Shown piece by piece: positions 7,807 through 20,134 of a DNA stretch of 20,374 nucleotides. A program made the position numbers and the translations under genes. The stretch lies in IMG/VR virus record IMGVR_UViG_3300032163_000120, positions 1 through 20,374 of that record; one strand, written 5' to 3'. The stretch's first letter is position 1, and every line of letters starts with the position of its first letter. Under the pieces are notes generated by a model. That model worked only from the letters and a program-made list of their open reading frames with translations, did no database searches and was not told the DNA's origin. Origin of the DNA: a virus.

Positions 7807-8108
7807 GCGAGTTATTTGAAAAGAGAGTCCTCTTCTCCCGGCTGATACCCCGGCTCCTGGACCGGATGGTGGAGGCGGGATATACCCCTTTGATAGGGAA
7901 GGATGGGTTGAAGCACAAGGTAGGATCACTCCACTTTGAGGGCCTGGCTATGGATGTGGACCTGTTCAGGGGTGGGGTGTACTTGGAGAAGACAGAAGAC
8001 CACCTACAGTTCGGGGAGTGGTGGGAATCACTGCACCCGGACTGCCGATGGGGTGGGAGGTTTGAGGATGGTAACCACTACAGCATCACCTACCAGGAAA
8101 AGAAATAA
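7803..8108 (+). CDS. Endolysin, M15 family zinc peptidase (L-alanyl-D-glutamate/D-Ala-D-Ala type)
   Basis: 101 residues. ATG 7803 overlaps the previous stop by 4 nt. The motif S-L-H-F-E-G-L-A-M-D (residues 42-51) supplies His44 and Asp51, and 'DGNHYSI' supplies His92, the three zinc ligands of the M15 peptidases. The stretch 'LHPDCRWGGRFEDGNHY' (77-93) is the signature of small phage endolysins of the T5/Ply500 type, in which Trp-Gly-Gly precedes the last ligand. The protein is short (about 130-140 residues is usual) and carries only the catalytic domain, with no wall-binding module and no signal peptide, so it needs a holin to reach peptidoglycan. It should cut the peptide stem of the wall at the end of infection. 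It is the last plus-strand gene. Confidence 0.88.
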   Translation: MSELFEKRVLFSRLIPRLLDRMVEAGYTPLIGKDGLKHKVGSLHFEGLAMDVDLFRGGVYLEKTEDHLQFGEWWESLHPDCRWGGRFEDGNHYSITYQEKK

Positions 8109-8117
8109 CCCACCTAC

Positions 8118-8300
8118 CTATTCTAATACCGACCACCCACACAGGGTAGCCTTGGGAAAGGTTGCAGTTTTAAATTTGCCATCCGACATAGCGGTATACC
8201 GAAATACCAATACCGTCTCATTATCACACACCATCTCCACATCACGAAAGGTATAGGTCCTTCCAGTAGGGGTGAAGATACATAGTATACTGTACCTCAT
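8118..8300 (-). CDS. Nested 60-residue protein inside the DUF1737-like frame
   Basis: Internal ATG at 8300 lies eight bases after a perfect AGGAGG (8314-8309 on the minus strand), as strong as any ribosome binding site in the window. The product 'MRYSILCIFTPTGRTYTFRDV...' looks like an independent beta-rich small phage protein (x-F-x-G-x-T-Y-x-F-x-x-V, then 'LVFRYTAMSDGKFK'). Because it is in frame with the upstream gene and no stop separates them, the cell may make both the long and the short form. No function is recognised. Confidence 0.55.
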   Translation of the reverse strand: MRYSILCIFTPTGRTYTFRDVEMVCDNETVLVFRYTAMSDGKFKTATFPKATLCGWSVLE

Positions 8301-9363: not shown

Positions 9364-11913
9364 CTATACCTTTGACATCTTACCCCACACCGGGCCCATC
9401 TTAGGGTCCACTGGAGTCGGTACTACCAGCTTCACAGCTGTCTCCATTGTACCTTGTATCACTCCTGTTAGCCACTCCACCTCCTTCTCTTTGATCTCTG
9501 CTAATAAATCATCGTGAGTTTGTAGAAGCATCCTCACTGTGTCCTTGGGCAGCTTGAGCAGCACCTCATACCACAGCTTCCTCATCGCTGTCTTGATAAC
9601 ACCTTGAGCACCGGACTGGACGGGCTGGTTAATCGCATACCGCAGACCCTCTTCCACTATCTTCTTACTGGAGCTGTAGACCTCCGGGATAAGTCGCCTG
9701 CGCCCCCACATATCTACCATATACCCCAAGCGGCGAGCCTGGGCACGGTCCTCATCCATCTGAGCAGCAATACCCGGGTAGGAGGCAAGCCAGGAGGTAA
9801 TGAGTGCCTCACAGCTCTCCACGGTCCAGCCCATGGCTCCCCCTACCTCCATCTGGTCTACCAGCCCCTGGGGGCTGATACCATACAGAATACCAAACCC
9901 AATCCTCTTAGCCGGGTAGCGGTGCTTCATACTATCCAGGGCCTCGATGGGTAGGTGAAACATCCTACTGGCGGTCTCACTGTGAATGTCCAGGCCCTTG
10001 CGAAAGATGTTGAGCATGGCTTCATCCATTGCCCTGCACGCCTCTACCCTCATCTCGATCTGTGAATAATCCAGGCTCACCAGGACATAGCCCTCACTGG
10101 CCTCGAATACATTGCGAAGCAGCAGGCCCTCTGGAGTACGGACGGGCATGGCCATAAGGTTGGGGTTCTCAGTAGCAAGACGCCCAGTTATGGTACGGGT
10201 GATCTTGATGGTCGTGTGCACCTTACCGTCTGGCCCCACATACTTGGGTATGGTATCCACAAACACAGACTTGAGGGTGGCATACTTCTTCCACTCCAGG
10301 GCCTCACACACCACCGGGTAGTCAGCTCTCAGTGGCTCCAGTACCTTGACTCCGGTGCTCTGCTTACCACTCTTGCCTACCTTACGCTTACCAGGGATAT
10401 CCTGCTGCACCAGCATTGCCGCCATCTGGTCGCTACTCCTGGGGTTCACCTTGTAGCCCAGGAGCTTCTCCAACTCCCTCTCATGGTGCTCCATCCTCCT
10501 CTCATAGAAGTCTCCCACTTCCCCCAGGGTCTTGAGGTTTACCGTAATCCCATTGTGCATCATGGAGAGGACCATGGGGATTACCCCCATGTCCATATCC
10601 AGTACCCCTTGGAGACCTTCGCCCTGGATGCGGTGCTTAAGGATGGGGTAAATGCGCCGGGTAGCGTCAGCATCACGGCAGGCATAGATCAGAGCAATAC
10701 TCTCCTCCACATCCCGGAGGTCGGCATCGGGCATAGGGCCAAGCTCCTTCTCCACAATCTCGGTACCCTCCATGTCGTACCACCGTTTGTGGAGGTCAAG
10801 TGGCTCCATAGCATGGTCCCTGAGCGCCCGTGCCACCTTCCTCCCTATGTTCTGTGGCTTCTTGACATGGGGACTGCCATCTTCCTTGAACTCCAATATA
10901 TGCTCAGGGTTGGGCCATTGCAGGGCCTCCACAGTCTCCAGATAAGCCTTAGCCTTGGAGTCCCCCCTACTCCCTATCACTGAGCGATAACTCTTCATCT
11001 CCATACCGGCCAGGCGGTAGGCAAGGGGCTTGAGACCCAGGGGCAGGTCTCCCAGGAGGTAGGCCATGACCATGGTGTCAACCACATGGGGAGGGTGGAT
11101 ATCCACTTGGTGGAGTACCTCCAGATCGAACATAGCATTGTGAAGAATGATAAGGAGGTCCGGGTTCTCCAATATCAACTTGGTCCACTTCATCTGTTCC
11201 TTATCCTCACACTTCTCCAACTGGGCAAAGTGCTCCTTACCGCATAGCTGGATGTATAGGGGCTTGCTGTCCCAGGTAGTCTCCGTATCCACTGCAATGG
11301 AGGCATAGTTCTCCCACTCCCGTGACCATACCCCAAACTCCTTTGCGGTCTGGTACCGAGTCATACCCTCGTCCTTACTCCATACCTCATTTCCATTCAA
11401 CCACAACCCCAGCCGCTTGAACCCCTCACTTATCATGGGGAGCATCCGGGTGTTGTGCAGGCCAAGGGCGGGGTGGTGGAGAGGAAATATCCAAGTGTCT
11501 CCCTCAATAGATTGCGGTATCCCCCATACCATATCGAGACTGAGGGGGCGTAACCGCCGTAGAGCTATAGCCCCCAGGGTAACTATCACCTCCGGGTTTA
11601 CCATCTCCAACTCCTGCTCCAGATAGTGACTGCACCTCTTCATCACCTCCGGTTGTGGGTCCTCGTTCTCCGGGGGGTTGCACTTCACCACATTGGTAAT
11701 CCATACCTCCTCTCGGGAGATGTGAATACCGTGGAGCCACCGGTCCAACTCCTTACCCGCTGGGCCAGTGAAGGGGTGGTGAGAGCGGAACGCCTCATCC
11801 ACTCCCGGTGCCTCACCGATGAACATCAAACGTGCCTCGGGATTACCCTTGCCCTCAACATACCCCCTCCGATAGTATGGACATGGGGCACAAATTGCCG
11901 TATCTTGCTTCAT
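9364..11913 (-). CDS. Family-4 uracil-DNA glycosylase fused to DNA polymerase A
   Basis: 849 residues from ATG 11913, chosen over an upstream in-frame TTG because GAGGAGG is just upstream. Residues 1-185 are a family-4 UDG: four likely iron-sulfur ligands (C8, C11, C78, C94), motif 'GEAPGVDEAF', 'HPFTGPAGKEL', 'TNVVKCNPP' and the distal 'HHPALGL'. Next comes a 3'-5' exonuclease with 'AVDTETT' near residue 206, 'HNAMFD', and 'YACRDADAT'. The polymerase domain has motif A 'DYSQIEMR' near 612, motif B 'RYPAKRIGFGILYG' near 670 and motif C 'QTHDDLLAE' near 800. There is no 5'-3' exonuclease. It is the replicative polymerase with built-in proofreading and an attached domain that should bind or remove uracil. 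Phage SPO1 polymerase has the same domain order. Motif C reads His-Asp-Asp where most PolA enzymes have His-Asp-Glu. The 176 bp upstream (11914-12089) hold no convincing gene. Confidence 0.93.
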   Translation of the reverse strand: MKQDTAICAPCPYYRRGYVEGKGNPEARLMFIGEAPGVDEAFRSHHPFTGPAGKELDRWLHGIHISREEVWITNVVKCNPPENEDPQPEVMKRCSHYLEQELEMVNPEVIVTLGAIALRRLRPLSLDMVWGIPQSIEGDTWIFPLHHPALGLHNTRMLPMISEGFKRLGLWLNGNEVWSKDEGMTRYQTAKEFGVWSREWENYASIAVDTETTWDSKPLYIQLCGKEHFAQLEKCEDKEQMKWTKLILENPDLLIILHNAMFDLEVLHQVDIHPPHVVDTMVMAYLLGDLPLGLKPLAYRLAGMEMKSYRSVIGSRGDSKAKAYLETVEALQWPNPEHILEFKEDGSPHVKKPQNIGRKVARALRDHAMEPLDLHKRWYDMEGTEIVEKELGPMPDADLRDVEESIALIYACRDADATRRIYPILKHRIQGEGLQGVLDMDMGVIPMVLSMMHNGITVNLKTLGEVGDFYERRMEHHERELEKLLGYKVNPRSSDQMAAMLVQQDIPGKRKVGKSGKQSTGVKVLEPLRADYPVVCEALEWKKYATLKSVFVDTIPKYVGPDGKVHTTIKITRTITGRLATENPNLMAMPVRTPEGLLLRNVFEASEGYVLVSLDYSQIEMRVEACRAMDEAMLNIFRKGLDIHSETASRMFHLPIEALDSMKHRYPAKRIGFGILYGISPQGLVDQMEVGGAMGWTVESCEALITSWLASYPGIAAQMDEDRAQARRLGYMVDMWGRRRLIPEVYSSSKKIVEEGLRYAINQPVQSGAQGVIKTAMRKLWYEVLLKLPKDTVRMLLQTHDDLLAEIKEKEVEWLTGVIQGTMETAVKLVVPTPVDPKMGPVWGKMSKV

Positions 11914-12089
11914 AATCCTCCTCACTCTCCTTTCCGATCTCAAAATGGGGTTATTTCCACCTGTGAAACCCGCAAATCTGACCTCCTGGCTGCCTTCAAG
12001 AGCAATTTGCTACCTCTGGGGGGTACAATCTACCAGCCCCGGCCCCCAGGGGGTGCCTATCGCCCGTCCTGGAGGCTCCTGCGAGGCCC

Positions 12090-12347
12090 CTAATGCATCA
12101 CCGGACAGGTACTCCTTGCTGCTCCTTCCACTTCTCCACACTTCTCACAATCCCCATTACACCCACCCAACTGGGCTATACGCCGGGCAGCGTCTATTAT
12201 TAGTGCTCCCAGGTGTTTTGGTGGGCCTATCATAGCATTGATGGCCTTCTCCCCATCTGTTATACCCAGGACCAATGACAGTCCCAATACCCTACAGATC
12301 GACTGCAACACCTCCACTACCCCTTTAATTTCCTCTATCCTATCCAT
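12090..12347 (-). CDS. Small helical protein with C-terminal Cys cluster
   Basis: 85 residues. ATG 12347 overlaps the stop of the ERCC4 gene (TAATG), with GGAGGAGGGGG just upstream. The N-terminal two thirds are helical and moderately hydrophobic ('IKGVVEVLQSICRVLGLSLV'), ending in 'DAARRIAQLGG'. The C-terminus carries 'CNGDCEKCGE' and one more Cys, an arrangement (C-x3-C-x2-C ... C) able to bind a metal. No family is recognised. Translational coupling to the nuclease suggests it is needed at the same time, perhaps as a partner in recombination or repair. Confidence 0.65.
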   Translation of the reverse strand: MDRIEEIKGVVEVLQSICRVLGLSLVLGITDGEKAINAMIGPPKHLGALIIDAARRIAQLGGCNGDCEKCGEVEGAARSTCPVMH

Positions 12348-13246
12348 TACCCCCTCCTCCATTGTAAGATGTTCACTACCTTGCGAGCGGTCTCCTTGCC
12401 TATACCCTCAACCTTGCACCACTCCCTCTCATCAGCAAGCACCATATCTATCAGGCAGGCAAAGTGCTTCTCTACCGCCTTACTCCTCTTCCACCCTATC
12501 CCCGGCAGACAGGCTGCCATGTACTGCAACACACTGGGCTTGCGGAACATCAGGGTGTCCACGGGCGGGTACTGAATAGCAATGTGCGATTGGTGCTCAC
12601 TCCAGTCCTTCCCGGTCCACCAGGAGTGGAGTGCCTGTATCTCCTGGACCGTGGCCCGTTTGTCTTCTGTATACCTCAACCTCACCCCCGCCATGTTCTC
12701 CAGGGTGGTGAGGAATTTTCGTATAGCCTCTGCCATAAAGCGGGTAGTACCATTGGCCACATCCTCCCAGGAGGGCCTCCCTGTCTTCCAGTATACCTTG
12801 GTCTGGAGTACCCCTGTCCTGGGGTCTCCCCTCCACCTACCCTCCACCACCAGGTACACCACCTGATACTCCTGTACCAGACCAGGCACCTGGTGGCCGA
12901 CCAGCCTACCGGCTGATAGCTCTCCAGCTATCTCCCTTATCCCCTTTCTCTCTATACCAATATTTAAAGGAAGCCCTCCTGGCCCGTTTCCTACAAAACA
13001 AAAATCACCAAACTGTAATGTTGTCAGCCGGGCTATTCCTTTCGGGAATAAATGGAATAACTCTTTTGAACCTACCCTACTGTCTACGGATATCATCCAA
13101 GCCCCCTTTCTATTAGATGCCTTTACCTCAACAGAGTGAAGACTTTTATACTTTGTTATGGCTTTTTTGTTAATTGCTCTTACCCTATCAGGATTTTTAG
13201 CAGCCCACCTCTTGTTTGCTTCCAATCTTGCAGGTGTTAGACTCAT
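12347..13246 (-). CDS. ERCC4-family nuclease with C-terminal helix-hairpin-helix
   Basis: 299 residues from ATG 13246. The stop of the upstream gene overlaps as ATGA, and the ribosome binding site is the GAG repeat that encodes that gene's poly-Glu tail. Residues 1-45 are basic and helical (EANKRWAAKNPDRVRAINKK). The nuclease core has Asp55 ('SVDSR') and the ERCC4 signature 'GIERKGIREIAGELSAGRL' around residues 97-115 (E99-R100-K101). The end holds two helix-hairpin-helix turns, 'LPGIGWKRSKAVEKHF' and 'VEGIGKETARKVV'. XPF/Mus81-like proteins with this order cut branched DNA at ss/ds junctions. In this phage it would resolve replication or recombination intermediates. It has no helicase domain. 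Confidence 0.85.
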   Translation of the reverse strand: MSLTPARLEANKRWAAKNPDRVRAINKKAITKYKSLHSVEVKASNRKGAWMISVDSRVGSKELFHLFPKGIARLTTLQFGDFCFVGNGPGGLPLNIGIERKGIREIAGELSAGRLVGHQVPGLVQEYQVVYLVVEGRWRGDPRTGVLQTKVYWKTGRPSWEDVANGTTRFMAEAIRKFLTTLENMAGVRLRYTEDKRATVQEIQALHSWWTGKDWSEHQSHIAIQYPPVDTLMFRKPSVLQYMAACLPGIGWKRSKAVEKHFACLIDMVLADEREWCKVEGIGKETARKVVNILQWRRG

Positions 13247-13440
13247 TCCTCCTCCTCCTCCTCCTCCTCCTCCTCGTCCTCTTCCTCTCTTTCCACCTCC
13301 CGCTTGATATCCTCTGCATCCCACCTCGCCTCCTGCTCCCTCTCCTCCTGATATCTCATGCAGTCACAGGCTACCCCGTCATCCGGGGCAAAGCGCACAT
13401 GGCACACGGGACAGTGTGCGGTCACACTAAAGTCACTCAT
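13243..13440 (-). CDS. Small zinc-ribbon-like protein with poly-Glu tail
   Basis: 65 residues from ATG 13440, with AAGGAG about eight bases upstream, inside the end of the HAD gene (ATGA overlap). Four cysteines, C10-x2-C13-x11-C25-x-C27, could hold one zinc ion. From residue 30 the chain is almost entirely charged, and it ends in a run of ten Glu, an acidic disordered tail of the sort that mimics DNA or recruits basic partners. The role is unknown. Translational coupling to the downstream branched-DNA nuclease suggests a regulator or targeting factor for it, which is inference. Confidence 0.7.
   Translation of the reverse strand: MSDFSVTAHCPVCHVRFAPDDGVACDCMRYQEEREQEARWDAEDIKREVEREEEDEEEEEEEEEE
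13248..13275 (-). repeat. (GAG)9 trinucleotide tract, coding and ribosome-binding
   Basis: Nine uninterrupted CCT units on the plus strand (GAG on the minus) encode most of the ten terminal Glu residues of the zinc-binding protein and abut the ATG of the ERCC4 nuclease. The tract therefore serves as a purine-rich ribosome binding site as well as coding sequence. Confidence 0.8.
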
Positions 13441-14855: not shown

Positions 14856-15614
14856 CTACATAGTGATAATCCCCTCCGTGATACTCCACGGACCACTGGC
14901 CATGAACTCCTCATCATAGGCCATCTTGACGATCTCGGTCTTGGAGGGATTGGCACTCACGACCGCAAAGGCCTTAGCTGCCAACTGCTGCTTGGTCAGG
15001 CCCTCCGGATTCTCACTCAACACCTGCATAAACGCCCCCAGGGCCATATCACTGATCTCGGAAGTATCACCAGCCGGGGCTTTGGCCTTCGCTGCTGCCG
15101 GAGCCTTACCCGTCACCTTGGCCGGTGCCTTGGCCTTGGCCTTAGCTCCAGGGAGTTCCAACACCTTGGTAACGATGAGGATCATATCCTCATACACCTT
15201 ACCATCCGCACGGGGTGCCTTGACCAACCCTGCCCTCTTGGGTGCCGCCACTCTCTCAAAGTGAGCTTTGGTGCCCACCAGGGCACTGGCCTTATCCTCC
15301 AGGCGATTCTCCGGGAACCCTCCTGAGACCATGGAGGATAGAAACAACCCAAAGTTACTTCCAGAGTTGAGCTTGCCCGATCCTTCCAGGCTCTCACCAT
15401 CCTCGCTGGGGGTCCCACCTTTCCCAGTGCTTAGCAACTGCTCATACTCCTCCCCGGCAGCGTCCGCAACCGTCAATTCAAAGACCGGAACCTCAGAAAC
15501 GGCCTTTCCCCCAAAGTTGCTCATAATGAACCTGGCCCCTGTGATCGTAGCGTCCATATCACCCCAAAGCCCTCCTCCTACCGACATTTCACTTGGTTTT
15601 AAGCTAATACTCAT
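14856..15614 (-). CDS. Probable ssDNA-binding accessory protein with flexible linker
   Basis: 252 residues from ATG 15614. The ribosome binding site is a weaker GAGAGG, ten bases away. Residues 1-150 are beta-rich ('DMDATITGARFIMSNFGG', 'PVFELTVADAAGEEYEQLLS', 'SNFGLFLSSMVSGGF'), like a family of phage proteins that accompany Sak4/annealing ATPases. Residues about 155-185 are an Ala/Lys/Pro linker (GAKAKAKAPAKVTGKAPAAA). The last 65 residues form a helical, winged-helix-like domain ('GLTKQQLAAKAFAVV'). I infer single-strand DNA binding or loading from the neighbourhood and layout; no OB-fold signature is certain. It is the first gene after the 397-bp control region, so it is probably transcribed from its own promoter. 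Confidence 0.5.
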   Translation of the reverse strand: MSISLKPSEMSVGGGLWGDMDATITGARFIMSNFGGKAVSEVPVFELTVADAAGEEYEQLLSTGKGGTPSEDGESLEGSGKLNSGSNFGLFLSSMVSGGFPENRLEDKASALVGTKAHFERVAAPKRAGLVKAPRADGKVYEDMILIVTKVLELPGAKAKAKAPAKVTGKAPAAAKAKAPAGDTSEISDMALGAFMQVLSENPEGLTKQQLAAKAFAVVSANPSKTEIVKMAYDEEFMASGPWSITEGIITM

Positions 15615-15656
15615 GGTGTAAGTTCCTCTCTTTCTTGGTTAATTGTTAATTTCGAT

Positions 15657-15791
15657 ACCCTACCCAAGTAGTTCTACCCCTCCCATTTCACCCCCTCTCT
15701 GTAAGTACCTATGATTATTATACTATACGGTGCGTTTAATAATATCAATAACTTAAGGCTCTTTTTGCCACCCTACCTAAGCAGCTCCACC
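15657..15791. repeat. Pair of 22-bp direct repeats (C/T variants)
   Basis: Copies at 15657-15678 and 15770-15791 share 18 of 22 bases (core ACCCTACCyAAGyAGyTC), and all four differences are C/T transitions. They are 113 bp apart. This could be a protein-binding site in a control region. The 15657 copy overlaps the 8-codon leader-like frame. Confidence 0.55.
15717..15748 (-). promoter_or_regulatory. Candidate promoter for the ssDNA-binding/Sak4 unit
   Basis: On the minus strand TTGATA (15748-15743) precedes TATAGT (15 bp spacer) or TATAAT at 15722-15717 (20 bp spacer). Neither spacer is ideal, but this is the best sigma70-like match in the gap and it points at the 15614 gene, about 100 bp away. 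Confidence 0.3.
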
Positions 15792-15912
15792 TATTTTGTA
15801 ACTATGTGGTTTTGCTGCCAATCACCCCTATTTTTCCTTTGTGACGGGTTTTTTACTCCTATATCTTTCCTATATAATTTGACTTACTATTAAAGTTGTT
15901 TGGAAGTAAAAC

Positions 15913-15980
15913 TATACACAAGGTACACTTAGTTAAAGGTATTAATAACTTAATGTATACACAGGGTATACATCATACCC
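15913..15980. repeat. TATACACA repeats with nested inverted repeat
   Basis: TATACACAAGGTACAC (15913-15928) and TATACACAGGGTATAC (15956-15971) match at 14 of 16 positions. The second copy contains two GTATAC palindromes 5 bp apart, and GGGTAT (15964-15969) pairs with ATACCC (15975-15980). They look like iterons or operator half-sites next to the helicase gene. Confidence 0.5.
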
Positions 15981-16011
15981 TACATTTAGTATTTATATCA
16001 ACAACTTGTTA

Positions 16012-17421
16012 TTAACACATGGTGAGGTGCCTATTTTTAAGAGCAAAGTGGTAGACACTCCCCTCTCTGGTCCTCTTCCTACTTACCACTCTGGTAAGGT
16101 TACGGCCAAAGGCGGTAATGTTCACAGGACTCAGGCCACGGTCCTGCGCCCATACCCTATACCTACGGTAGATATCAATAGCCCGGGTCCATACCTCACC
16201 ATTGATATCCACCGCCTCATCCCCCAGGAAGGATTGCAGGTAGTCCTCTTCCTCTTCATACTCCTTGGTACTCTGACGTATCACAGGTGGGGTTAGCAAT
16301 CCGTACTCCTGCCACTCCAGGCATCCCCGGATAGCCCAGGCAAGTATACCCTGGTCCTCGATCTGTGTGAAGCGGCGCATAAGGTCCAAGTCCCGCTTCC
16401 TTTCGTCAGGTTTGGTAGGGTTTTCCACAAAGGACAGGGTGAAGGGCACCAGGTGGAGACGTTGGAACAGGGCGTAGTCGTTGGCATCCACCTGGGGTTT
16501 GTGATTAGTGAGTAGAAACATGGTGTGGGTAGGGTGAAAGGTTATCTCATCCTTACCGTATAGGGGCCGGGCCGTGATGGTATCCCCACCGCAGAGCCAC
16601 TTGACCAGGGAGGTGGAGAGCTTTCGCCCCTCATCGGTCTCGTTGGCCCACACCAACCTCTTACCCTGGAGATTCATGAGGTCCGGGCTGGCAGAGGCGC
16701 TGTTCCGGGTATAGGTCTGCTCCATTAAGAGGGATGAGGACACCGGGGTGGCAAAGCTCCCCAACACCTTACCCAACACCTCCAGCATCGTACCCTTGCC
16801 ATTACGTCCTCGTCCGTATAGGACCGGGAATATACCCTCACTCGATGTACCACTCAAAGCATACCCCACCAACCTCCTTAGATAACCTGCCATAGCCTTA
16901 TTCCCATTCATGATCTGGAGCAGAAATTCCTCCCACCGGGGACAGGTGACTTGCAGACCCCGGAAGGTGGTGGGGCAGCAGGCTCGCAGATAATCCTCCT
17001 GCTTCCCACTTACCATCTTACCGGTCCTGAGATTCACTACCCCGTTCTCACAAGGAAGGAGCCAGGGGGTGCTATCCCACCGTATCCCCCCCTCGCGGGA
17101 TAGTTTTGAGGCTGCGAGCTTCAACACACTCACTCTGCGGCTGTAGGTGTTAAGGCTGTTGATCCTCTTCTTCAATTCTCTCCGTATATCCTCCTGCCAT
17201 TTATCGGAGGTGTTCAGTAACTCCTTCCTATAGACTTTGGCTACCTCATCCACCGCACTCACCACCCCCTCACCACTGTCCTCCTTCCAATAGTGATCGC
17301 CCCACTTGTACCAGGTGCGGGTAGAACGGTCATAGCAGTATTCGGCTATAAACAACTCCACAAACAGGTTTGCGTCCCCTACTTCGTTCATCTCCAGGTG
17401 TTTGGTAATTTGTGGGTCCAT
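16012..17421 (-). CDS. D5/P4-type SF3 replicative helicase (no primase domain)
   Basis: 469 residues from ATG 17421, seven bases after AGGAGG; the ATG at 17427 is only one base from it. Residues about 1-190 contain the D5-N-like region ('WLLPCENGVVNLRTGKMVSG', then 'CCPTTFRG'). The SF3 ATPase follows: Walker A 'GRGRNGKGT' (203-211), Walker B 'RLVWANETDEG' with Glu261, and motif C 'MFLLTNHKP' with Asn306. A C-terminal winged-helix-like segment ('IDIYRRYRVWAQDRGL') ends the chain. Proteins of this family unwind the phage or plasmid origin. Most phage and P4-type forms carry an N-terminal primase, which is missing here. It ends right at the AT-rich gap, which supports an origin role for that gap. 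Confidence 0.88.
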   Translation of the reverse strand: MDPQITKHLEMNEVGDANLFVELFIAEYCYDRSTRTWYKWGDHYWKEDSGEGVVSAVDEVAKVYRKELLNTSDKWQEDIRRELKKRINSLNTYSRRVSVLKLAASKLSREGGIRWDSTPWLLPCENGVVNLRTGKMVSGKQEDYLRACCPTTFRGLQVTCPRWEEFLLQIMNGNKAMAGYLRRLVGYALSGTSSEGIFPVLYGRGRNGKGTMLEVLGKVLGSFATPVSSSLLMEQTYTRNSASASPDLMNLQGKRLVWANETDEGRKLSTSLVKWLCGGDTITARPLYGKDEITFHPTHTMFLLTNHKPQVDANDYALFQRLHLVPFTLSFVENPTKPDERKRDLDLMRRFTQIEDQGILAWAIRGCLEWQEYGLLTPPVIRQSTKEYEEEEDYLQSFLGDEAVDINGEVWTRAIDIYRRYRVWAQDRGLSPVNITAFGRNLTRVVSRKRTREGSVYHFALKNRHLTMC

Positions 17422-17432
17422 AGGCATACCTC

Positions 17433-18194: not shown

Positions 18195-18862
18195 ACCTCA
18201 CCTACACTTTCCAACCACCGGTATGCAGCCAGAAGGGTCAGGAAGCCTTGGAAGTCACCGGGGTCATCGTGTGCCTTGAACCTCACCTTGCCGGTCTTGC
18301 GGCTCACACCTACCAACCCTCTCCGGCCTATAGACCTGTTGGTCATCTCTGTATAAGCCTGGGCATAGGCCGCTGTCTGTGCCCGGTCAATGTTGCGTAT
18401 GGTCCCGGTCTTGATATCCCCCACACTGGGAAGAGTATCACCCTTCAGGACCCACACCCGGTCCAACTTCCCTGCATACCCATAGGCAAGGCTATACACT
18501 ACCTTCTCCACCTCAACGATCTCCTGGACACTCCTATCCCGCCACACAATATAGTTACTTAATTGCGTGTACATCTCTGCTGGTGGGGTACCGATAATCT
18601 CCAACCCCCCACCTGTCATGTCCATGATAGCGGTGAAGTCGTGAATAGCCTGGCCGTACAGGGCGGCATCATTAGTCACTTGGTTGGCTTGCTCATTCCC
18701 CACCCTGCCTCGCCACTGTTGGAGGTATGGGTGGCCTATAATCCCTTTGACAGTCGTGACAGAGGGTAGGAGCCTCCCTTGGACAGGGTAATACCTCGGC
18801 TCCTCCCGCTCTTCTTGTCCGATCTCAAACCACCCCTCATCGGGGGCTGTGAGAACCATCAT
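18191..18862 (-). CDS. PD-(D/E)XK nuclease (RecB/Cas4-like exonuclease)
   Basis: 223 residues from ATG 18862 (ATG also at 18859); the ribosome binding site is weak. Motifs follow the family order: 'LPSVTTVKGIIGHPYLQQW' (32-50), 'YGQAIHDF' with His74, 'GYAGKLDRVWVL' with Asp134, 'VGDIKTG' (148-153) with catalytic Asp149 and Lys151, and 'AQTAAYAQAY' (161-170) with Gln162 and Tyr166. This is the core of the RecB/Cas4/lambda-exonuclease superfamily. It probably resects DNA ends to make single strands for the annealing ATPase encoded further down the same strand. No iron-sulfur Cys set like that of Cas4 is present, so a phage exonuclease is favoured over Cas4. Confidence 0.85.
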   Translation of the reverse strand: MMVLTAPDEGWFEIGQEEREEPRYYPVQGRLLPSVTTVKGIIGHPYLQQWRGRVGNEQANQVTNDAALYGQAIHDFTAIMDMTGGGLEIIGTPPAEMYTQLSNYIVWRDRSVQEIVEVEKVVYSLAYGYAGKLDRVWVLKGDTLPSVGDIKTGTIRNIDRAQTAAYAQAYTEMTNRSIGRRGLVGVSRKTGKVRFKAHDDPGDFQGFLTLLAAYRWLESVGEV

Positions 18863-18869
18863 AGGTGGC

Positions 18870-19892
18870 CTACTTCCGGGGGGTCTTGGGGGTGGTTTTA
18901 CCAGGGGACGGGGTAGTTGCCCTGGTTTTGCCCTTGCCTGCCGCCTGTGCCCTTCCAGGGGCCTTCTTCACAGCCTCTGTGGGTGGTTTTGCAATAGCTT
19001 GATAGGTTTTTTTGGCTGCTTTGGCCATCTCGGCCCGGCGAGCTACCACTTTGGCATGGGCACGGGCATTGTGGGCCGTATTCTTGGCCCGGCGAGAGCA
19101 GGGCTTGCACAGGGTGACCGGGTGGGATTCAATTCCTGCATTGCGAGGATCAAGATACCTCGGTTGCCCACAGGTACTACAGATAATCTTGTTGGGATAT
19201 AGGTTGATATCAATCTTCTCCGGGGTGCCGTTCCAGTTGAGCTGCCTCCTCCACACCGGCTCCTTGGGACCCACCTTGGTAACCTTGCCCGTCTTCTTGC
19301 TCATGGAGGTCTTGAGCGGCACAGTGACCTTACCACTCTTGGCCTTGTTGCCCTTGGCCTTGGGGTCCACGGGCCTACCTACATAAGCCAGCTTGGTAGG
19401 GGGCTGTTCAGGTACTTTGCCTGTCTTGGCCTTCTCTTTAGCCACAGCCGTCCGGGGCCGGGCCACCTTGGGTGCTATTTTCTTCGTTGCCATACTCTTC
19501 TCCTTCTCTTTGGCTTTGTGTGTATCCCCCACCACCTTCTTCTTAGCTGGGGATACGGTTGGGATTAGTGACATGGTTTTGGGTTTAGCCGGGGGTGGGG
19601 TCTCCATTGGGACCTGTGTCTTGGGGGTAGGGGGTGATGCTACCGGTGCTACCGGTGCTACTCCCTTCCCCGCCTCCAGGTCCAACTCATTAAACTTTAC
19701 CCTCATGATCTGGTCATCCACTATGGCCCACTTCTCTCTCACATCAGGAAAGGTTATGGTGAAGGTAGGTATTGCATTAATCAAGGCACTCCTTACCACT
19801 GCCCGTCCAAAGTCGGTCTCAATAACCCCTTTGGACAATCCCCCTTCCACCAGGGACTTCACAATATCCTGTGTTAGAAACACATTATCCAT
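18870..19892 (-). CDS. Lys/Pro/Ala-rich zinc-ribbon protein (putative DNA-binding)
   Basis: 340 residues from ATG 19892, with AAAGGAGGAGGAACT directly upstream; an earlier in-frame start at 19910 would overlap that site. Residues 1-75 look folded ('NVFLTQDIVKSLVEGGLSKG'). A Pro-rich spacer and a long Lys/Ala-rich, histone H1-like region follow (about 105-210). A zinc ribbon comes next, C238-x2-C241-x20-C262-x2-C265 ('IICSTCGQ' ... 'TLCKPCSRR'), then a second basic, disordered tail ('KKAPGRAQAAGKGKTRATT'). It should bind nucleic acid, perhaps as a phage nucleoid or transcription-modulating protein. An internal ATG at 19493 has AAGGAG six bases upstream and could yield a 207-residue form lacking the N-terminal domain. 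Confidence 0.65.
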   Translation of the reverse strand: MDNVFLTQDIVKSLVEGGLSKGVIETDFGRAVVRSALINAIPTFTITFPDVREKWAIVDDQIMRVKFNELDLEAGKGVAPVAPVASPPTPKTQVPMETPPPAKPKTMSLIPTVSPAKKKVVGDTHKAKEKEKSMATKKIAPKVARPRTAVAKEKAKTGKVPEQPPTKLAYVGRPVDPKAKGNKAKSGKVTVPLKTSMSKKTGKVTKVGPKEPVWRRQLNWNGTPEKIDINLYPNKIICSTCGQPRYLDPRNAGIESHPVTLCKPCSRRAKNTAHNARAHAKVVARRAEMAKAAKKTYQAIAKPPTEAVKKAPGRAQAAGKGKTRATTPSPGKTTPKTPRK

Positions 19893-19906
19893 AGTTCCTC
19901 CTCCTT

Positions 19907-20134
19907 TCACTCGATAGAATCAAGACCCGTAAGGGCCTCCTCCAAATTGTTAACTACATCCTCCAGGGCATTGATTGCCTCTTCTGCTGCATAAGCCTTA
20001 TCACCACCCTCCATATTCTCCGGCATATTATCCCGGTACTCCTGTTCCTCCTCCAGGGCAGTGTCTAACATTCCCTTGGCCTCTTCCAACATATTCACGA
20101 CCCTCTCCAAATTCTTGCGCCTCTTTTTGTTCAT
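19907..20134 (-). CDS. Small acidic helical phage protein
   Basis: 75 residues from ATG 20134, with AGGAGGTGAGAGAGT upstream. The pattern 'NKKRRKNLERVVNMLEEAKG', then 'EEQEYRDNMPENM', then 'AINALEDVVNNLEEAL' is that of a very common small early phage protein: two acidic helices joined by an E-x-Y-D-N-x-P-E loop. Its function has not been established to my knowledge. It is the first gene after a sigma70-like promoter and a long inverted repeat, so it should be expressed early and strongly. Confidence 0.8.
   Translation of the reverse strand: MNKKRRKNLERVVNMLEEAKGMLDTALEEEQEYRDNMPENMEGGDKAYAAEEAINALEDVVNNLEEALTGLDSIE

Follow-up and report, generated by a model that had tools for sequence, protein, structure and literature searches.

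The 397-nt non-coding gap at positions 15615-16011 is probably the replication origin of this phage, served by the helicase whose gene adjoins it. We refer to the whole stretch of DNA analysed here, 20,374 nucleotides long, as the window. On the best reading of the sequence, the gap would be an origin of an already known kind, that of A2, Sfi21 and SaPI initiator-helicases, perhaps assisted by IHF and possibly sharing its space with a promoter. The basis for this reading is position, AT-richness, low calculated stability, IHF-consensus sites, the predicted fold of the helicase and the recurrence of the same position in relatives; from these we infer binding, melting, loading and origin activity. 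An earlier note made from the letters of the window had proposed an origin here, and that interpretation is now supported, largely by evidence from beyond the window sequence (annotated origins, relatives and fold).

The gap sits between two minus-strand genes in the ORF list of the window. Rightward of ~8.1 kb, all genes that we take as real are on the minus strand; among them, read leftward from the right end, are an exonuclease-like gene, the D5_N/SF3 helicase, then the gap, a 252-aa unassigned protein, a Sak4-like ATPase and a UDG-PolA polymerase. By this order and strand, the gap immediately follows the helicase gene and precedes a gene of the same orientation.

15615-16011, no strand: candidate origin of replication, a non-coding and AT-rich stretch immediately 3' of the helicase gene, placed like the annotated A2 and Sfi21 origins
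16012-17427, minus strand: D5_N/SF3 helicase gene, 471 aa, proposed initiator (PF08706, E 4e-26; PF19263, E 3e-10)
14856-15614, minus strand: gene that follows in operon direction, encoding 252 aa without a PHROG or Pfam match
15711-15893, plus strand: 60-aa ORF within the gap, from the ORF list, taken as spurious
15849-15958, no strand: candidate unwinding element, with the least stable 50 nt (15849-15898) and the least stable 100 nt (15859-15958)

With the genes as chosen here from the ORF list, this is the longest intergenic gap, the runner-up measuring ~146 nt (11944-12089); at the right contig end, 240 nt carry no chosen gene. At 34.5% GC versus 52.2%, it is the most AT-rich stretch of its length in the window: 43 of 19,978 segments of 397 nt are equally AT-rich, all 43 start at 15597-15647 and overlap the gap, and the best segment clear of it has 40.8% GC. 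By nearest-neighbour energies, no other DNA in the window is less stable, whether measured over 50, 100 or 397 nt. The description in the earlier note, of an AT-rich and only long gap beside an SF3 helicase gene, thus stands. Traits of an origin of the D5-type initiator-helicase kind that are found here are the adjacent D5_N/SF3 helicase gene, the non-coding region directly 3' of it and, by calculated stability, an AT-rich, easily melted core.

Several other signals were absent. The cumulative GC skew, a check that the earlier note had proposed, makes no turn at the gap; the curve declines from ~8 kb to the right end, with small positive windows at 16251-16750 (inside the helicase gene) and 18751-19250. 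We rejected GC skew as an origin signal, the profile being accounted for by gene strand. Near the convergent gene-strand switch at ~8108-8118 the cumulative skew does turn, as gene strand predicts. No end repeats were found in the 20,374-base record, in which the gap DNA matches only itself, no terminators were found in 15000-16600 (1.3 expected), and the window gave no tRNAs and no Rfam families at gathering score.

The AlphaFold model of the helicase encoded beside the gap (mean pLDDT 89.2) has an ASFV primase-helicase as its closest fold match (Z 32.4), with other D5-type helicases also among the top rows; SaPI5 Rep (7om0_D), tied among others, matches with Z 28.4 and an rmsd of 4.9 over 394 aligned residues (range 4-469). 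The C-terminal winged helix, a further trait of D5-type initiators, is present in the predicted fold.

16045-16191, minus strand: proposed iteron-binding domain, winged-helix-like, codons ~413-461; predicted strand-helix-helix-strand-strand, pLDDT 76 to 86 in blocks 411-460

Pox_D5 matches 22 of 29 aligned members at E<=0.1 but does not appear among the matches of the window protein, whose residues 416-460 match DUF3874 weakly (E 0.0095). The window helicase presumably acts as the initiator. The 252-aa protein on the far side of the gap is called ssDNA-binding-protein-like, from its place and composition only.

Other minus-strand genes have features of their own. A 346-aa Lys/Ala/Pro-rich protein without PHROG or Pfam match (18870-19910) lies directly upstream of the exonuclease-like gene. 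DNA polymerase A (9364-11943) combines an N-terminal uracil-DNA-glycosylase domain (residues 31-165) with 3'-5' exonuclease and polymerase domains in one protein. At 12347-13440, overlapping ORFs cover a TCCTCC-rich run (~13247-13290) that is Gly-rich in one frame and Glu-rich in another, and an ERCC4/HhH-like nuclease within this stretch may begin at an internal ATG.

Two features of the gap stand clearly above chance, its AT-richness and a pair of exact IHF-consensus sites. Measured against shuffles of the gap that keep dinucleotides, the repeats of the window itself are weak. The TATACACA repeats that the earlier note took as iteron-like are present in two copies (15913 and 15956), and the search for repeats elsewhere that it suggested found none in the rest of the window; 198 of 200 shuffles reach an exact 8-mer in two copies, and by themselves the repeats are not convincing iterons. 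Its 22-bp direct-repeat pair exists as 29 nt at 76% identity (15650-15678 and 15763-15791), with the best pair equalled in 10 of 200 shuffles; both this pair and TATACACA are at or near chance. The AATAACTTAA blocks are likewise where it had seen them (15747 and 15944), with a third, degenerate copy within an 18-nt family at 15990-16007, and a three-copy 18-mer is reached in 8 of 200 shuffles. As for the inverted repeat, a perfect dyad is there, and a dyad with 8-bp arms occurs in 113 of 2000 shuffles. The best inverted pair of the gap is matched by 37 of 200 shuffles and short-loop dyads with 7-bp arms by 23 of 2000. The heptamer ACCCTAC occurs three times, as in 11 of 200 shuffles, and its reverse complement GTAGGGT resembles the repeats of five related loci (L015, L105, L093, L023 and L066).

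15953-15973, no strand: perfect dyad ATGTATAC-N5-GTATACAT, 8+8 bp, inside the TGTA array
15977-15983, plus strand: ACCCTAC copy 1, reading GTAGGGT on the gene strand; an alternative candidate for the iteron
15770-15776, plus strand: ACCCTAC copy 2, within the direct-repeat pair
15657-15663, plus strand: ACCCTAC copy 3, within the direct-repeat pair
15912-15984, minus strand: candidate initiator-binding array of five TGTA sites at 15984, 15972, 15961, 15927 and 15918, about one helical turn or multiples of it apart

The five phased TGTA sites are suggestive as candidate initiator sites. Their spacings are 12, 11, 34 and 9, and they lie behind the helicase stop, where the iterons of relatives often start. 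With TGTA chosen in advance, from the related locus L048, 6 of 2000 shuffles do as well; with the choice of 4-mer left free, 38 of 300 do. L048, whose repeats are GGTGTATACC and GGTGTAGG, is the third nearest of 40 loci by helicase C-terminal domain, though only 25% identical there. Ranking the TGTA cluster above the three GTAGGGT copies as candidate sites is a judgement.

As an iteron array the gap scores z 0.4 over its first 350 nt and 1.3 to 1.7 as a whole, compared with 16 to 17 for A2. Motif z-scores were computed with 12 shuffles each in the 55-locus survey, the window scan, the other-gap control and the 30-locus set described below, so single values are rough, that of the gap ranging from 0.4 to 1.7 with length and shuffles. 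The method also under-scores the annotated Sfi21 origin (z 0.4 to 3.6); with exact shorter words Sfi21 stands out (0 to 2 of 200 shuffles) and the window does not (11 of 200 at best). We rejected a better iteron array elsewhere in the window: among 100 scan windows placed every 200 bases, three exceeded z 4, all in coding sequence and two from one TCCTCC run.

The stronger evidence comes from relatives of the helicase. A scan of IMG/VR gave 562, of which the best 80 were kept; together with the window these made 81 loci, six of which were left out (three without a helicase ORF found and three running off the contig). The remaining 75 (74 relatives and the window) were reduced to 55 non-redundant loci, window included, by removing near-duplicates through shared 5-mers; gene ends and gaps in this survey come from mechanical ORF picking. 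A second set, found around a Desulfobacterales MAG and one Deltaproteobacteria MAG, used 30 of 36 bacterial-genome loci, six being duplicates of others.

AT-richness directly behind the helicase recurs in both sets. The GC content of the 250 nt after the gene minus that of the gene has a median of -0.090 in the 54 relatives (from the best 80 of 562) versus -0.012 at 160 other gene ends, taken from other long ORFs (Mann-Whitney p 3e-14, with relatives that are not independent). A drop below -0.10 is seen in 24 of these 54 relatives, again from the best 80 of 562, versus 10 of the 160 ends, and all 30 of the 30 loci in the second set have lower GC behind the helicase.

Iteron arrays show the same preference for place. 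Arrays with z>4 lie just behind the helicase in 22 of 55 loci (from the best 80 of 562; the window, included, is a miss). Controls rarely have them: 2 of 55 stretches within the helicase itself, 1 of 53 following other genes and, in the same loci, 2 of 124 further gaps at least 120 nt long. At z>3 the counts are 26 of 55 (from the best 80 of 562) versus 12 of 124 other gaps, and a simpler, earlier repeat count gave 19 of 55 (same best 80 of 562) versus 4 of 60 controls. In the second set, 11 of 30 loci have such arrays at z>4 behind the helicase versus 1 of 30 inside it, the sole control there. No array at z>4 was found in 33 of the 55 loci (from the best 80 of 562). Weaker cases among the 22 are L018, which looks low-complexity, and L037, with its motif at least 278 nt away; among the 11, the top motif of L099 falls outside its AT-rich part. 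By eye, many of the printed regions consist of repeats, an AT core and repeats again, often inverted, and the repeats differ by locus (CAGGACCATT, TATGACGATT, GGTGTATACC, TTAGGGTATT and others). Arrays around an AT core just after the helicase occur in several phages and related loci, L004, L085, L025, L028, L102, L107, L105 and others among them. Among the annotated records retrieved, those of A2 (L004) and Sfi21 (L122) call this place the origin and that of L085 does not. The statement in the earlier note that origins bound by D5/P4-type helicases often lie next to the helicase gene is borne out by the A2 and Sfi21 annotations, the arrays, the AT dip and SaPI Rep.

The gap itself could not be aligned to a near-identical counterpart: the 252-aa protein gave no relative in viral contigs and the polymerase patterns gave no matches, so these searches supplied no close relative. 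Over 148 and 60 comparisons, its similarity to the relatives' regions was no more than chance. The nearest likenesses are L048 (2 of 100 shuffles) and L099 (5 of 300, an IHF-like site), which we call suggestive; equal or better are L059 (1 of 100), L035 (2 of 100), L117 (2 of 300) and L114 (4 of 300).

The IHF consensus, as given in the part of PMC10380432 drawn on here, is WATCAANNNNTTR, and the AATAACTTAA blocks fit IHF sites, better than they fit iterons.

15996-16008, plus strand: exact IHF consensus site TATCAACAACTTG, adjoining the helicase stop
15743-15755, plus strand: exact IHF consensus site TATCAATAACTTA, a AATAACTTAA block
15940-15952, plus strand: TATTAATAACTTA, an IHF-like site one base off the consensus and the second of the AATAACTTAA blocks

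Exact matches number four in the whole window, two of them in the gap. Two or more exact sites arise in 1 of 500 and 0 of 3000 shuffles (1 of 3500 together), and the four gap sites within one mismatch are reached by 9 of 500; these figures are optimistic because the motif was recognised only after the repeat had been seen. Behind the helicases of the 30 loci from Desulfobacterota-type genomes there are six exact sites, three of them in one locus, versus 1.2 expected (0 of 100 shuffles), and the 54 IMG/VR relatives (from the best 80 of 562) show no excess, with 1 versus 1.1 expected. TIGR00988, the IHF-beta family, matches 10 of 10 genomes with related helicases, none above cut-off, as well as 9 of 14 control genomes; these matches do not establish IHF, because HU-type proteins account for them equally. 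The literature searched, as far as its text was available, gave no description of an IHF feature at phage origins behind D5-type helicases.

These data also bear on two other accounts of the gap. That it is a neutral AT-rich spacer or what is left of a lost gene, its repeats arising from base composition, would agree with most of its repeats being at or near chance for that composition. We regard this as highly improbable, given that the AT dip recurs at the same place in relatives, that two exact IHF sites lie in the gap and that 397 nt are unusual for so tightly packed a genome. Equally implausible is an origin of the DnaA type, in which the TATACACA copies would be degenerate DnaA boxes (TTATNCACA) and host DnaA would open the AT-rich stretch. 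Three sites within one mismatch do lie in or at the edge of the gap (12 of 500 shuffles), the third (16009-16017) running into the helicase stop; against this, the phage carries its own D5-type helicase, the gap has no exact box, and sites within one mismatch number 9 versus 12.3 expected in the 30 loci and 15 versus 14.2 in the 54 (from the best 80 of 562). As an origin signal, DnaA boxes are unconvincing and were rejected, since the gap lacks an exact one and relatives are not enriched in them.

A more serious competitor, although in our view an unlikely one, is that the gap serves mainly to control transcription of the cluster starting at 15614 on the minus strand, through promoters with TTGATA -35 boxes and an operator in the dyad at 15953-15973, IHF acting as co-regulator, and that the origin is elsewhere, perhaps off the contig. 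The gene downstream is co-oriented, and 15000-16600 holds five sigma70-like matches versus 1.6 expected (sd 1.3), including minus-strand matches at 16001-15972 and 15748-15720.

15720-15748, minus strand: sigma70-like promoter match TTGATA-17-TAGTAT toward the downstream gene, its -35 within an IHF-like site

TTGATA is part of the IHF motif on the opposite strand and doubles as a -35 box; two of the three repeat copies serve as such, but the third is not listed with a -10 at promoter distance. The 8-bp dyad overlaps the -10 of the promoter at 16001-15972 by two bases. A promoter alone does not explain the position and the iterons in relatives, because other gaps in the same loci rarely carry arrays. 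In L086 the same motif is present in both orientations. The origin reading leaves room for both functions, and the same region may contain a promoter for the downstream gene.

If the gap is an origin, the C-terminal winged helix of the helicase would bind short repeats just behind its own stop codon, the best candidates being the five phased TGTA sites and the dyad (15912-15984). IHF would introduce bends at two or three sites, the middle of the gap, where AT content is very high, would melt, and helicase hexamers would load and, working outward, unwind the DNA for the polymerase of the phage. For this phage, the analysis thus names candidate sites for both initiator and IHF.

Across loci, the repeats appear to follow the helicase. 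Among 40 loci for which a motif was called, similarity between motifs rises with the sequence identity of the C-terminal domain (rho 0.30, p 0.0005) and with that of the helicase core (rho 0.31, p 0.001), and the C-terminal domain retains a partial Mantel correlation of 0.175 (p 0.005) given the core. This set comprised loci with z above 3.3; L099 (z 4.3, top motif outside its AT-rich part), L098 and L108 (both z 3.3) were left out, and L018 and L037 were kept. The covariation fits a direct reading of the repeats by the C-terminal domain, and since the repeats follow that domain over 40 loci, a recognition code between initiator and origin could be derived from sequence. We tentatively propose, at somewhat less than even confidence, a shared plan in D5-helicase phages: private iterons and an AT core behind the helicase would be read by its winged helix, the repeats would track that domain, and some origins in IHF-bearing hosts would have shifted to an IHF-bent form with few iterons, the window being an example. 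The wider position rule and the covariation of repeats and domain are more interesting than this single gap: the rule for finding where replication of many uncultured phages starts would be to look directly behind the D5-type helicase gene. We found no published cross-phage survey of origins behind such helicases, in an open-access search that is weak evidence of absence.

Among known systems, E. coli oriC, which is IHF-assisted, resembles the window in having IHF consensus sites beside an AT-rich unwinding stretch, according to the part of PMC10380432 consulted; it differs in that the window has no convincing DnaA boxes and that the IHF sites of the window are predicted from sequence. The initiator family treated in the consulted part of PMC7145576 is a different one from the D5-type helicases and was set aside.

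The annotated origin of A2 (AJ251789, rep_origin 32208-32717) takes in the end of the homologous primase ORF35, which is 30.6% identical to the window helicase, and continues behind it. As in the window, the origin region is AT-rich and adjoins the 3' end of a homologous D5-type primase/helicase gene; in A2 it also reaches slightly into that gene. Unlike the window, A2 has a clear ACGGGAGGAT-like array in both orientations, with none as strong in the window, and its gene is longer ('putative primase', 2313 nt), the window encoding a 471-aa helicase alone. Sfi21 (NC_000872, 34487-34784) likewise has an annotated non-coding origin, of 302 bp, at the end of and behind a putative primase gene whose product is a homologue of the window helicase (blastp E 6e-9, 19% identity over 297 residues); in contrast to the window, it contains many AGTAAC repeats (seven exact). 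No papers on the A2 origin were found in the literature searched, and the A2 and Sfi21 origins are taken from record annotation.

For the staphylococcal elements, the consulted part of PMC7581432 reports that SaPI Rep recognises an origin directly downstream of its own gene through its C-terminal domain. It also reports that direct repeats lying downstream of the SCC gene for Cch2 are bound by Cch2 and by its C-terminal domain in isolation, and that no more than three iterons were found for this protein (PMC7581432). These are satellite or cassette elements, their repeat sequences differ from those of the window, and IHF is not mentioned in that part of the source. The likeness to the window lies in a D5_N-type helicase that has a C-terminal DNA-binding domain, predicted in the window, and whose gene is immediately followed by an origin or a putative one.
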